In this document: positions 48,910-53,322 of the stretch, in pieces
Numbering within the stretch: position 1 is the stretch's first letter
How the letters are laid out: every line of letters begins with the position of its first letter
DNA from: Halomicrobium urmianum
Lineage (GTDB): Archaea > Halobacteriota > Halobacteria > Halobacteriales > Haloarculaceae
NCBI RefSeq assembly: GCF_020217425.1
Contig: NZ_CP084090.1
Location: 2,418,001 to 2,482,000 of the forward strand
Length of the DNA: 64,000 nucleotides
Direction of reading: 5' to 3'
The notes under the pieces: generated by a model
Told to the model about the DNA's origin: nothing
Databases searched by the model: none
What the model saw: the letters and a program-made list of their open reading frames with translations, nothing else
Program-made: the position numbers and the translations under genes

Positions 48910-49623
48910 ATGAGCACGTGGGCGGACTGGGATCACGTCGTGAAGATCGACCCGGACAAGAGCCTGGTCGAGGGCGAGACGTTCGAGGACGTCTGCGAGA
49001 CCGGGACGGACGCGCTGGAGATCGGCGGGACGCTGGACGTCACCAGCGAGAAGATGGAGCGGGTGATCGACGCCTGCGCGAAGTACGACGTCCCGCTGTA
49101 CCAGGAACCGTCCAACCCCTCGGTCGTCGTGGAGGACGAGGCCGTGGACGGCTACCTCGTCCCGACCGTCCTCAACGCCGGCGACCTCGCCTGGACGACG
49201 GGCTTCCACAAGGAGTGGGTCAAGACCAGCGACGTCGACTGGGACCGGACGACGACGGAGGCGTACGTCATCCTCAACCCCGACTGCAGCGCCGCCCAGC
49301 TGACCCAGGCCGACACCGATCAGGACGCCGACGACGTGGCGGCCTACGCCGAGATGGCCGAGCAGATGCTGGGCCAGGAGATCGTCTACGTCGAGTACTC
49401 GGGTACGCTGGGCGACCCCGAGAAGGTCCGGGCCGCCCACGAGGCGCTGGAGGAGTCGACCCTGTTCTACGGCGGCGGCATCCGCGACTACGAGTCCGCC
49501 CGCCAGATGGGCGAGGTCTCGGACGTCGTCGTGGTCGGTGACCTCGTCCACGACGAGGGCGTCAACGCCGTCCGCGAGACCGTCGAGGGGGCGGCCGACG
49601 CGGCGGCGACGGCCGAGCGCTGA
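48910..49623 (+). CDS. Geranylgeranylglyceryl phosphate synthase
   Basis: GGGP synthase attaches geranylgeranyl diphosphate to sn-glycerol 1-phosphate, the first committed step of archaeal ether-lipid synthesis. The 237-residue TIM-barrel protein has [75 protein letters not shown] and [12 protein letters not shown], which hold the phosphate- and prenyl-binding loops. ATG 48910 has a TATA box at leaderless distance; the longer frame from 48856 is rejected for that reason. Confidence 0.94.
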
Positions 49624-49776: not shown

Positions 49777-51041
49777 ATGACGCGCGAGACCGGAGACAGA
49801 TCGCGAACGGGGGAATCGGAGACGAACGGCGGGGGGACGCCACACCGCACGGGGCGGCGGGCGTTCCTGAAGGCCGGACTGGTCGGCCTGGGCACCGTCG
49901 CCGCGGGCGGCCGGGCCGTCGGCCGCGCGGCGGCCGTCGCGAAGGACGACTACAACCTGGCCCACGCGCTCCAGCAGTCGCTGTACTTCTTCGACGCGAA
50001 CGAGTGTACACCTACTACGGCGAGGGCGACGAATCGGTCGAGGGCTTCCCGCCGGACGAGGAGCCCATCGACCCCTACTTCGTCGAGGCCCGGGTCGAGA
50101 CCGACTCCTCCGAGATCGCCGAGATCGAGGCCTTCGTCGACAACGTCGCGATCCACCCGCCGCGCTTCGAGGACGGCCTGAGCGTCCGGTACTACTTCGA
50201 CGCGAGCGGCATCGACGAGCCGGAGGGACTGACGGTGGACGTCTACTACGACCAGACCGACGCGCAACCCGGACAGGCCGCTGAGGTCGTCGGGCCGGGA
50301 CCCTACGACGAGTCCGGGGACGTCTACTACGTCGAGTTCGACTACTCGGGGATCCAGATCGCCGGCTAATACGGACTGACCGTCGCGCTCAGCGACTACG
50401 CGAACGCCAGCCTCGACGCCAGTAGCGACTGGAGCTTCCAGGGGCTCGACGACGAGCGCGCGAAGACGGAGTACGTGCCGGTCTACGTCGACGGCGAACT
50501 CGCGTTCGGCCGCGAACCCGGCGGTGACGCGCCCGACGAGACCGCACCCGCACCTCCGACGCCGCTCTCGGTGACCGGCATCGGCCCGACCGCGATCGGT
50601 CTCTCCTGGAGCGCGGTCACCGACGACGGCTCCGGCATCGAGCACTACGCCATCTCCGGCGACGGAATCCAGCGGACCACCGTGCCCGCGGGCACGACCT
50701 CGACGACGCTGGAGATGCTCTCGCCGGCGACCGACTACGAGGTCGCCGTCCGGGCCGTCGATGGCGCCGGCAACGGCTCCGAGCTGGCGACGGGGTCCGC
50801 GACGACCGCCACAGTCGAGGACGGCCCCGACCCGCTCGACGGGACCGAGCCGACCGACCCCGACGAAGACGGCGTCTACGAGGACCTCAACGGCAACGGC
50901 GAGACCGACTACTCCGACGTCGTGCGCTACTTCGACGAGATCGACGGCGAGTACTTCGCGGAGAACGCCGAGTACTTCGACTTCAACGGCAACGGCGAGG
51001 CCGACTACAGCGACCTCGTCGCCCTGTTCCAGGCGGTGTAG
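49777..51041 (+). pseudogene. Remnant of a GH9-CBM3-FnIII-dockerin cellulase, catalytic domain deleted
   Basis: The gene starts at ATG 49777 with a Tat signal (GRRAFLKAGLVGLGTVAAGG). It reaches the first GH9 helix (DDYNLAHALQQSLYFFDANE, up to about 50004), then jumps in another frame to a linker and a CBM3-like module (about 50070-50518: DPYFVEARV, VRYYFDASGI, VYYVEFDYSGIQI, WSFQGLDDE). That module is interrupted by TAA at 50367-50369. A fibronectin type III domain (about 50544-50815) and a dockerin-like pair (DLNGNGETDYSDVV and DFNGNGEADYSDLV, about 50860-51041) follow. About 400 residues of catalytic domain are missing. It cannot encode an active cellulase. Confidence 0.85.
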
Positions 51042-51117: not shown

Positions 51118-53322
51118 TCAGAACACGAACCGCTCGACGATTCGGCGGAGGGGTCCGGGCCGTTCCGATTCCCGGGGCTGGATCTGGATCGCGGTGCAGT
51201 CGACGGTGTCGACGATCCGGTCGGCGGGGCGGCCGAACAGGCGGCCCCGGAGCCGGCCGCCGTCGGTGCCGATGACCAGCACGTCGGCGGGGTCGGTCAG
51301 GTCGACGAAGTCGCTCGCCCGGTCGTCGGACTCGACGACCGATCGCTCGACCGGGACCGAGCACAGCCCCTCCAGCTCCGCCAGGTACTCGTCGATCGTC
51401 GCCCGCTGGGCCTCGGTCGCGTCGGCGTCGACCCGGTAGACGAGGTCGATCGGCGAGCCCGTCTCGCTGGCCAGCGCGTTCGCGACGGCGATCTTCTGGG
51501 GGTCGAAGGGCCCCCGGTCGGCGACGACCGAGACTGACTCGACCTCGGCGAGGTCCCGTTCCTCGACGAGCAGGACGTCGCAGGGCGCGTTCCGGGTGAT
51601 CCACTCAGTGGTCGATCCGAACAGGGAGGCGTACAGCGGTTCGTCGGTCCGCTCGACGACGAGGAAGTCGGCGTCCTCGTGGGCGGCGAAGTTGACGACG
51701 GCGTGTTTCGTGTCGTGGCTGACGATCTCCCCGTAGTGGACGGGAACGTCGAACTCCTCGGTGAGGTCCGCCGTCCGGCGCTCGAACTCGACGTCGGCGG
51801 CCGACTGCACCTCGGAGGCGTGTTCCAGCGGCTCCTGGTCTGGCACTTCGTCGAACTGGACGACGGTGACAGAGCCGTCGTTCTCGCGGGCGATGTCGGC
51901 CGCGATCCGCAGGAGCGACCGCTCGCGGGCCTCGCTCGTGTCCTCGGTGATCGCGACCAGCACCTCGTATCCGTCGACGTCCTCGAACAGCGACCGGGTG
52001 CGCTCGACGGCCTGCCGGCCGACCGAGCGGCGGACGACGTCCGTGGCGGCCCCCTCACGCTCGACGCGGTCGCGGGCGTAGTAGAAGTACCACAGGACGG
52101 AGCCGACGGTGATGACGGCCGCCCCCACGAGCGGGACGGTCCCCATGAAGCCGATCAGCAGCAGGCCGCCGAGGATGCCGAGGATCTGCGTCCACGGGTA
52201 CAGCGGCGACTCGAAGCTCGGATCGTAGTCGGCCGCCCCCTCGCGGAAGGCGATCACGGCACCGTTGACCAGCGCGAACACGACGATCTGGAAGGCGCTG
52301 GCCAGTTTGGCGATGTCGGAGACGGGGACGAAGGCGATCAGGAAGAGCATGACCGCGCCCGTGAGCGTGATGGCCCGCGCGGGCGTCCCGAACCGGTCGT
52401 GGACCTCGGTCAGCGACTCCGGGGCGAGGGCGTCGCGGGCCATCGCGAAGGGGTACCGCGACGAGGAGAGGATGCCGGCGTTGGCCGTGCTGATCAGCGC
52501 CAGCACCGCGGCCAGGATGATGGCGACGACGCCCGGCCACGCCAGCGCCGCCTCCGCCGCGTCGATCATCGGGACCGACTCGCTGAGGCCGCCGGGCTCG
52601 GTCACGCCGACCATCACGACGACGATCAGCACGTACAGCAGCGTCGTGACACCCAGCGACGCGAGGATCCCCAGCGGGAGGTTGCGGTCCGGGTTCTCGA
52701 CCTCCTCGGCGACGCTGGCCACCTTGGTCACGCCGGCGTAGGAGACGAACACGAAGCCCGTCGCCGCCAGCAGGCCGGTCGGCCCCTCCGCGAAGAAGTT
52801 CCCGTAGCTCGCTGCGTTCGTCGCCGGGAGGCCGCCGACCACGAACCACGCCATCGCCGCGAGCATGACGACGACGATGCCGACCTGCAGGCGGCCGGTC
52901 TGCTTGGCGCCGACGATGTTCACGACGATCAACAGCGCCGCCAGCGCCAGCGCGACGGGCGTCTCCGGCAGGTCCGTCAGGTACAGCAGGTAGGGGATCC
53001 CGCCGACCAGCGCCAGCGCGCCCTTGAAAGAGAGCGAGAACCAGGTGCCGACGCCGGCGATCGTGCCCAGAAGCGGCCCCATCCCGCGCTCGATGTAGAT
53101 GTACGTCCCCCCGGCCTCTGGCATCGCAGTGGCCATCTCCGACTTCGAGAGCGCCGCCGGGAGCACGAGCAGGCCGGCCAGCAGGTACGCCACGATGACG
53201 GCCGGGCCCGCCATCTTCAGGGCCAGCCCCGGGAGGATGAAGATGCCGCTCCCGATCATCGCGCCGATCGAGATGGCGATCACCGCCGGCAGGCCGAGGT
53301 CCCGTTCGAGTTCCTTCCCCAT
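51118..53322 (-). CDS. APC-family amino-acid permease fused to two Usp domains
   Basis: The 734-residue protein has an N-terminal amino acid-polyamine-organocation transporter of about 12 helices (1-430), with the first-helix motif AISIGAMIGSGIFILPG and FVFVSYAGVTKVASVAEEVENP. Two cytoplasmic Usp-like domains follow (about 455-590 and 595-715, the second ending VLVIGTDGGRLRGRLFG). Fusions of this type are known in haloarchaea and may let nucleotides or stress modulate uptake. The substrate is probably a neutral or cationic amino acid (inference). A palindrome and TATA-like element lie about 230-260 bp upstream. Confidence 0.92.
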   Translation of the reverse strand: MGKELERDLGLPAVIAISIGAMIGSGIFILPGLALKMAGPAVIVAYLLAGLLVLPAALSKSEMATAMPEAGGTYIYIERGMGPLLGTIAGVGTWFSLSFKGALALVGGIPYLLYLTDLPETPVALALAALLIVVNIVGAKQTGRLQVGIVVVMLAAMAWFVVGGLPATNAASYGNFFAEGPTGLLAATGFVFVSYAGVTKVASVAEEVENPDRNLPLGILASLGVTTLLYVLIVVVMVGVTEPGGLSESVPMIDAAEAALAWPGVVAIILAAVLALISTANAGILSSSRYPFAMARDALAPESLTEVHDRFGTPARAITLTGAVMLFLIAFVPVSDIAKLASAFQIVVFALVNGAVIAFREGAADYDPSFESPLYPWTQILGILGGLLLIGFMGTVPLVGAAVITVGSVLWYFYYARDRVEREGAATDVVRRSVGRQAVERTRSLFEDVDGYEVLVAITEDTSEARERSLLRIAADIARENDGSVTVVQFDEVPDQEPLEHASEVQSAADVEFERRTADLTEEFDVPVHYGEIVSHDTKHAVVNFAAHEDADFLVVERTDEPLYASLFGSTTEWITRNAPCDVLLVEERDLAEVESVSVVADRGPFDPQKIAVANALASETGSPIDLVYRVDADATEAQRATIDEYLAELEGLCSVPVERSVVESDDRASDFVDLTDPADVLVIGTDGGRLRGRLFGRPADRIVDTVDCTAIQIQPRESERPGPLRRIVERFVF

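Follow-up and report, generated by a model that had tools for sequence, protein, structure and literature searches.

A twice-broken GH9-CBM3c-dockerin cellulase gene in Halomicrobium urmianum, probable decay across the dockerin-tagged gene set, and a candidate haloarchaeal scaffoldin

The window, a stretch of 64,000 nucleotides from the Halomicrobium urmianum genome (4.25 Mb, 6 contigs, 99.3% complete), contains at 49777-51041 (contig C1, 2467777-2469041) the pieces of a modular secreted protein between two intact genes (Table 1). Read in frame 1 from 49777, the 5' piece opens with the TAT-type leader RRAFLKAGLVGLGTVAAGG, with its RR at about 49855, and continues with DYNLAHALQQSLYFFDANEC. Over 49777-50003 only frame 1 has positive coding log-odds (+25.8), over 50004-51036 frame 3 reaches +193 with the runner-up frame at +9, and a codon-usage HMM trained on this same genome places the frame change exactly at 50003/50004. 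Frame 3 encodes a CBM_3 module (PF00942; 39.0 bits, above the curated cut-off of 22.4) that is interrupted by a TAA codon. Its best matches in a PDB search (8u49, E 4e-18; T. fusca E4, 1js4, E 2e-15) fall on the C-terminal CBM3 parts of GH9-type endoglucanases. The dockerin-like 3' end scores 20.7 bits against Pfam Dockerin_1 (PF00404), slightly under the curated cut-off of 22.9 that two sister copies in the genome pass (23.7 and 26.7 bits), and 101 bits against profile A1, built from haloarchaeal dockerins and including this domain among its rows.

Table 1. Positions of the surviving pieces, their neighbours and related loci (window positions unless a contig or locus is named)
Feature	Location	Strand	Content and basis
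Left neighbour	48916..49623	+	PcrB family (geranylgeranylglyceryl phosphate synthase type), intact; Pfam PcrB, 195 bits
Surviving 5' piece	49777..50003	+	Start codon, TAT-type leader, first GH9 residues to DANEC; translation and alignment
Deletion junction	50003..50004	+	GACGCGAACGAGTGTACACCTACTAC; about 1.39-1.42 kb of GH9 gone, frame altered
GH9 end and linker	50007..50081	+	YTYYGEGDESVEGFPPDEEPIDPYF; aligned to corresponding part of L026-L028
CBM3c module	50082..50522	+	Pfam CBM_3 core at 50082-50339
Second lesion, in-frame TAA in CBM3c	50367..50369	+	Stop within the still-coding frame
FnIII domain	50553..50783	+	Pfam fn3, 49.8 bits, cut-off 25
Dockerin-like domain	50850..51038	+	Two DxNGNG calcium-loop repeats; stop codon 51039-51041
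Right neighbour	51118..53322	-	Amino-acid permease with two Usp domains, intact; Pfam
Broken GH9 gene	49777-51041	+	Deletion/frameshift and TAA
Broken GH16 gene	C1:748.9k		TGA within catalytic domain
Broken GH10 gene	C2:344.3k		Profile positions 8-83 in one frame, 95-307 in another
Broken second GH10 gene	C3:388.5k		Frameshift close to N-terminus
Broken GH5-fn3 gene	C1:919.7k		Frameshift upstream of its own cohesin-like domain and dockerin
Broken pectate-lyase-like gene	C1:3000k		TAG and two frameshifts
Broken SASA-type acetylesterase gene	C1:120.7k		Frameshift upstream of dockerin
Candidate scaffoldin	L029 12105-15224; C1:2396.1-2399.2k	-	1040 aa, TAT leader, five cohesin-like repeats (C1:2396.4-2398.5k), C-terminal dockerin; intact
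Single-cohesin-like gene	L029 15404-16126		241 aa, C-terminal TM-like stretch; beside candidate scaffoldin
Gene pair, G001	L254 5065-8524		Cohesin-dockerin exoprotein and small single-cohesin-like protein
Gene pair, G019	L255 4600-8076		Cohesin-dockerin exoprotein and small single-cohesin-like protein
Multi-cohesin-like proteins, G052	L250 3576-5885; L251 7940-10096; L253 3318-7424; L252 4163-9178

The GH9 nature of the 5' piece is indicated by alignment with relatives together with a weak PDB match. The piece carries the GH9 N-terminal start YN.A.ALQ.S..F.DA, 14-16 of its last 19-21 residues are identical to those of three intact haloarchaeal GH9 proteins (L026, L027, and L028), and endoglucanase 2yik is matched at E 0.025; a Pfam search of the 76-residue N-terminal piece, which is too short, made no GH9 call. 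The GH9 catalytic domain (PF00759) is absent from the locus and, in a domain search of the assembly, from the whole genome. The remnant is a former GH9 member and not a working GH9, with just the first residues and the tail left.

CBM_3 is rare in the family, being found in 3 of 146 genomes, and it is in two of the other genomes that the intact layout occurs. One relative (G052) carries two intact GH9-CBM3-dockerin genes, one of them with fn3, and another (G072) carries one GH9-CBM3 gene with the order GH9-CBM3-FnIII. Module order in these genes is that of the pseudogene, with roughly 36-42% identity over the C-terminal part and a conserved junction region, but their frames are intact over 845-1000 aa, and the dockerin of the G072 gene is missing in the alignment. 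The two pieces of the pseudogene align to opposite ends of the intact proteins, with 462-473 residues missing between the junction columns; in the relatives, 1389-1422 nt span the distance from just past the DANxC codon to the GALAGF end. The join GAGTGTACACC is compatible with a short TGT or GTGT common to both edges, although microhomology is only a guess. T. fusca E4/Cel9A and clostridial Cel9G exemplify the combination of GH9 and CBM3c in endo- or processive cellulases. The pseudogene shares with the E4/Cel9A type the order GH9 start, GH9 end, linker, and CBM3c, as well as the CBM3c matches to 1js4 and 8u49, and differs from it in the deleted catalytic domain, the broken frame, the added FnIII and haloarchaeal dockerin, and the TAT leader.

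GH9 is present in five of the six other genomes of the genus and absent from this one. Two congeners (G005 and G006) have kept the PcrB and permease-Usp flanks with no trace of GH9 or CBM3 between them, and thus the gene was either gained in the present lineage or cleanly lost elsewhere. A search with the GH9 alignment against the contigs of other genomes, among which near genomes may be omitted, returned bacterial homologues only, the nearest being clostridial (best Ruminiclostridium, 47% identity), and the CBM3 piece found no match in the same kind of search, with the same possible omission.

We read the locus as a secreted GH9-CBM3c-FnIII-dockerin cellulase gene that has become a pseudogene through two hits, with a probability of about 0.93, given two independent inactivating lesions and the existence of intact homologues (L026-L028) elsewhere. 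The TAA at 50367 is a lesion independent of the deletion. A deletion within the gene, about 1.4 kb long, removed nearly all of GH9 and joined the remainder out of frame, and because of this join, translation would yield only a short, secreted, and useless product of about 135 residues ending near 50184; the nonsense codon further cuts CBM3c. The decay would have followed once growth on plant polymers was no longer under selection, and the dockerin would formerly have bound cohesin-like domains that the genome still encodes. The earlier note had proposed a cellulase remnant devoid of its GH9 catalytic domain, with the leader and a GH9-like N-terminal segment fused out of frame to the linker and CBM3, a later stop in CBM3, and FnIII and paired dockerin-like DxNGNG repeats retained, and had suggested seeking the intact gene in relatives. 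All of this is borne out above, whereas its estimate of about 400 deleted residues proved too low.

The pseudogene is not an isolated case. Profile A1, with which dockerin genes were collected, identifies 16 full dockerin domains in the genome, compared with one to six in each of five congeners; the tagged genes encode mostly polysaccharidases, which supports the suggestion in the earlier note of an ancestor that used plant polymers. A weak partial match at C1:2794840-2794935 (profile positions 3-34, 28 bits, three stops) is either a decayed copy or chance. Frame-by-frame reading, combined with Pfam searches of the pieces, revealed that at least 7 of the 16 tagged genes are broken, with lesions that differ from gene to gene. 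The GH9 pseudogene is thus one case in a wider decay of dockerin-tagged, nearly all polysaccharidase genes. Among the tagged genes, three of GH5 and one of GH10 are still open; the dockerin of one intact GH5 lies at C1:2391607-2391795. An in-frame GH5-dockerin gene (L039 5017-6639, minus strand; C1:1327.0k) reads HTP and TS.G in place of the catalytic NEP and TE.G, and its leader is apparently out of frame; it is possibly a pseudoenzyme or another decayed gene, and this gene (C1:1327034) was left out of the broken count though its catalytic motifs look lost. In a further gene (L035 10897-14142, plus strand; C1:3199.2k) the dockerin lies close to the N-terminus, D-x-D-x-DG repeats are abundant in the protein, and the coding signal continues beyond stops at L035 14143 and 15805.

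As a control we used a 444-kb sample of the same genome with about 381 coding segments, which, with the target's own events excluded, gave at most 15 suspicious events, about 8 of them natural gene ends on inspection. These flags were sorted into real and not by eye from translations, and most 'stop' flags were rejected as natural gene ends with the next gene in the same frame; all 15 were nevertheless kept in the statistic as a conservative choice. Two genuine control breaks (L113 9161 and 12002, in C1:2550001-2570000) are frameshifted genes in a sugar-acid/xylan utilisation cluster; named by reading the sequence and not by family search, they are polysaccharide-deacetylase-like and SGNH-esterase-like. 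Lesions are about 11-fold denser in the dockerin genes than in the control (0.36 versus 0.034 per kb). Of 30 dockerin genes in G052, not one carries a break upstream of its dockerin; all five flagged genes were rejected because the flag fell 3' of the dockerin or where the following gene begins. Likewise, all 14 dockerin genes of the five congeners are in open frames of 662-1758 aa. The 7 of 16 broken genes differ significantly both from the control (Fisher, p = 5e-6) and from G052 (p = 2e-4), and we consider it likely that the decay is targeted to the dockerin-tagged set. The decay looks recent, since dockerins of the broken genes still score 88-108 bits, near most intact ones. According to a comparative study, true cellulotrophic haloarchaea require several GH5, GH10, and GH9 enzymes (PMC10267330), a rule under which the present strain would be impaired. 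The same study records growth of Halomicrobium zhouii on amorphous cellulose.

An assembly or sequencing error, by which the gene would be intact in the organism and its catalytic domain lost in mis-assembly, is very improbable. Several of the sister-gene lesions are indels of the single-base type, some of them in or near homopolymers (CCCCCC in the esterase), and sequencing error could mimic such indels one at a time. However, the second lesion at our locus is of the substitution type and lies 360 bases off, and the missing 1.4 kb has no second copy, as the genome contains no other GH9 with which it could have collapsed. The completeness of 99.3%, the few genuine frameshifts in the control, and the approximately 11-fold excess of lesions in dockerin genes also argue against error. 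Even less probable is a functional remnant, in which either the 188-aa FnIII-dockerin ORF at 50475-51041 or some recoded product would fill or compete for cohesin sites. GC3 in the FnIII-dockerin part is still 0.94, and its calcium loops are conserved, but recent inactivation predicts high GC3 equally well; moreover, the ORF has no signal peptide and so would not be exported, and two lesions lie between it and the leader. Enzymes of this sort often undergo module shuffling, and at the DNA level the genome's dockerin ends are 72-81% alike from one gene to another, yet the idea that GH9 was never present, with a leader and helix shuffled onto a CBM3-FnIII-dockerin cassette, is the least credible of all because the edges (DANxC and the C-terminal GH9/linker YYxxG..FPPxEEPID) match both ends of one GH9-CBM3c protein in the right order.

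The pseudogene reading leaves the matter of what its dockerin might have bound, and the question of an archaeal cohesin partner posed by the earlier note now has a positive lead. The genome gives 11 profile matches to cohesin-like domains, some of them in predicted membrane-anchored proteins. One protein, at C1:1746.9k, exceeds the Pfam cut-off for Cohesin (PF00963; 30.4 bits, cut-off 24.1) and carries a PGF-CTERM-like tail that scores 22.0 bits, under the cut-off of 24.5. The repeats of the candidate scaffoldin go unrecognised by Pfam when taken singly and align with the C1:1746.9k domain in profile A3, repeat 1 being 42% identical. The candidate scaffoldin gene also adjoins a GH5-fn3-cohesin-like-dockerin gene and a GH5-dockerin gene, a cluster that may have the layout of a scaffoldin with its enzymes. 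No recognised CBM match was obtained for the scaffoldin N-terminal domain; its sole PDB match, an engineered spike construct, looks spurious, and a CBM was rejected there. A domain of about 145 aa (LVVxDFxGDPxW...) with no Pfam match is common to the scaffold (L029, N-part), a short dockerin protein (L033 6521-7297), and the G072 GH9 protein (L026, C-terminus), and is possibly a new binding module. Pfam detects Cohesin in two of nine cohesin-like domains, the best PDB match is the Scaffoldin C cohesin 5lxv at E 0.04, and profile comparison with one Pfam-grade archaeal cohesin gives a probability of 33%. Hence the cohesin assignment of these haloarchaeal domains is a remote one, made from sequence.

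Profile A3, built from the haloarchaeal cohesin-like domains, was searched in the 146 genomes of the family and matched 52, of which 50 also encode dockerins; both domains are absent from 85 genomes (Fisher, 3.5e-27). At the level of genera (22 in all), the 10 with cohesins all fall among the 12 with dockerins (p = 1e-4). Both p-values overstate the association, since many A3 matches share a chain with the dockerin and the genomes are related and not independent. The chains that bear both domains also account in part for the strength of the A3 signal; for Pfam-grade cohesins (30 genomes), co-occurrence with dockerins is weak by eye. Cleaner evidence comes from a hand count of 27 genomes in four genera in which a separate single-cohesin ORF and a cohesin-dockerin protein lie no more than about 200 bases apart. 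In two such pairs (G001 and G019), the larger protein is a PhoX-type phosphatase, as judged by Pfam in the former and by a similar N-terminus in the latter, and the small neighbour ends in a PGF-CTERM-like or TM-like tail. G052 has 43 dockerin matches and further multi-cohesin-like proteins, one of which has a TAT leader, three repeats, and a dockerin, whereas others end in PGF-CTERM (38.4 bits in one) or TM. Likely partners of the dockerin are therefore encoded in the genome, and we infer that they bind it. A working cohesin-dockerin system with a scaffoldin in haloarchaea is a tentative proposition, to which we give slightly less than an even chance.

In the clostridial cellulosome, a scaffoldin with a CBM, repeated cohesins, and a dockerin gathers dockerin enzymes, and anchoring cohesins complete the system. 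The candidate scaffoldin, a TAT protein whose five cohesin-like repeats are followed by a C-terminal dockerin, lies beside two dockerin GH5 enzymes and resembles this arrangement, as do the single-cohesin proteins with predicted membrane anchors. In contrast, anchoring would be by PGF-CTERM or TM instead of SLH, the scaffold lacks a CBM3, and the haloarchaeal domains are remotely assigned, putative cohesins (Pfam in 2 of 9 domains). Archaea bearing cohesin or dockerin domains were held to lack scaffoldins (Peer et al. 2009, as cited in PMC9012536), and proteins with up to five cohesins were described in ANME archaea in 2022 (PMC9012536). Those proteins, like the haloarchaeal candidate, combine a dockerin and several cohesins on one archaeal chain; the common dockerin proteins of ANME, however, are ABC substrate-binding components, whereas in this genome dockerins sit mostly on polysaccharidases. 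Type I dockerins of haloarchaea have been described as substrate-binding modules (PMC10963439, PMC13260240), dockerins go unmentioned in the study of polysaccharide-eating haloarchaea (PMC10267330), and we found no paper on a haloarchaeal scaffoldin in the open-access literature, subscription papers being outside the scope of our search.

In conclusion, there is nothing unusual in the pseudogene as such; what is notable is the probable targeted decay, together with the candidate haloarchaeal cellulosome-like system. Co-occurrence, conserved gene pairs, and the scaffoldin-like gene suggest that dockerins hold exoenzymes at the cell surface, a role that would contrast with the published substrate-binding view. 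Conceivably, with odds that we place just short of even, haloarchaea have a cellulosome-like system in which dockerin-bearing polysaccharidases, the dead GH9 once among them, assemble on scaffoldins and on cohesin-like proteins anchored by PGF-CTERM or TM, in a lineage that is now losing the enzymes first. If this is true, the loss of enzymes ahead of an intact scaffold and anchors means that an archaeal cellulosome-like system has been caught mid-decay. For the study of how a polymer-degrading lifestyle is lost, the broken and intact genes of this genome form a natural series.
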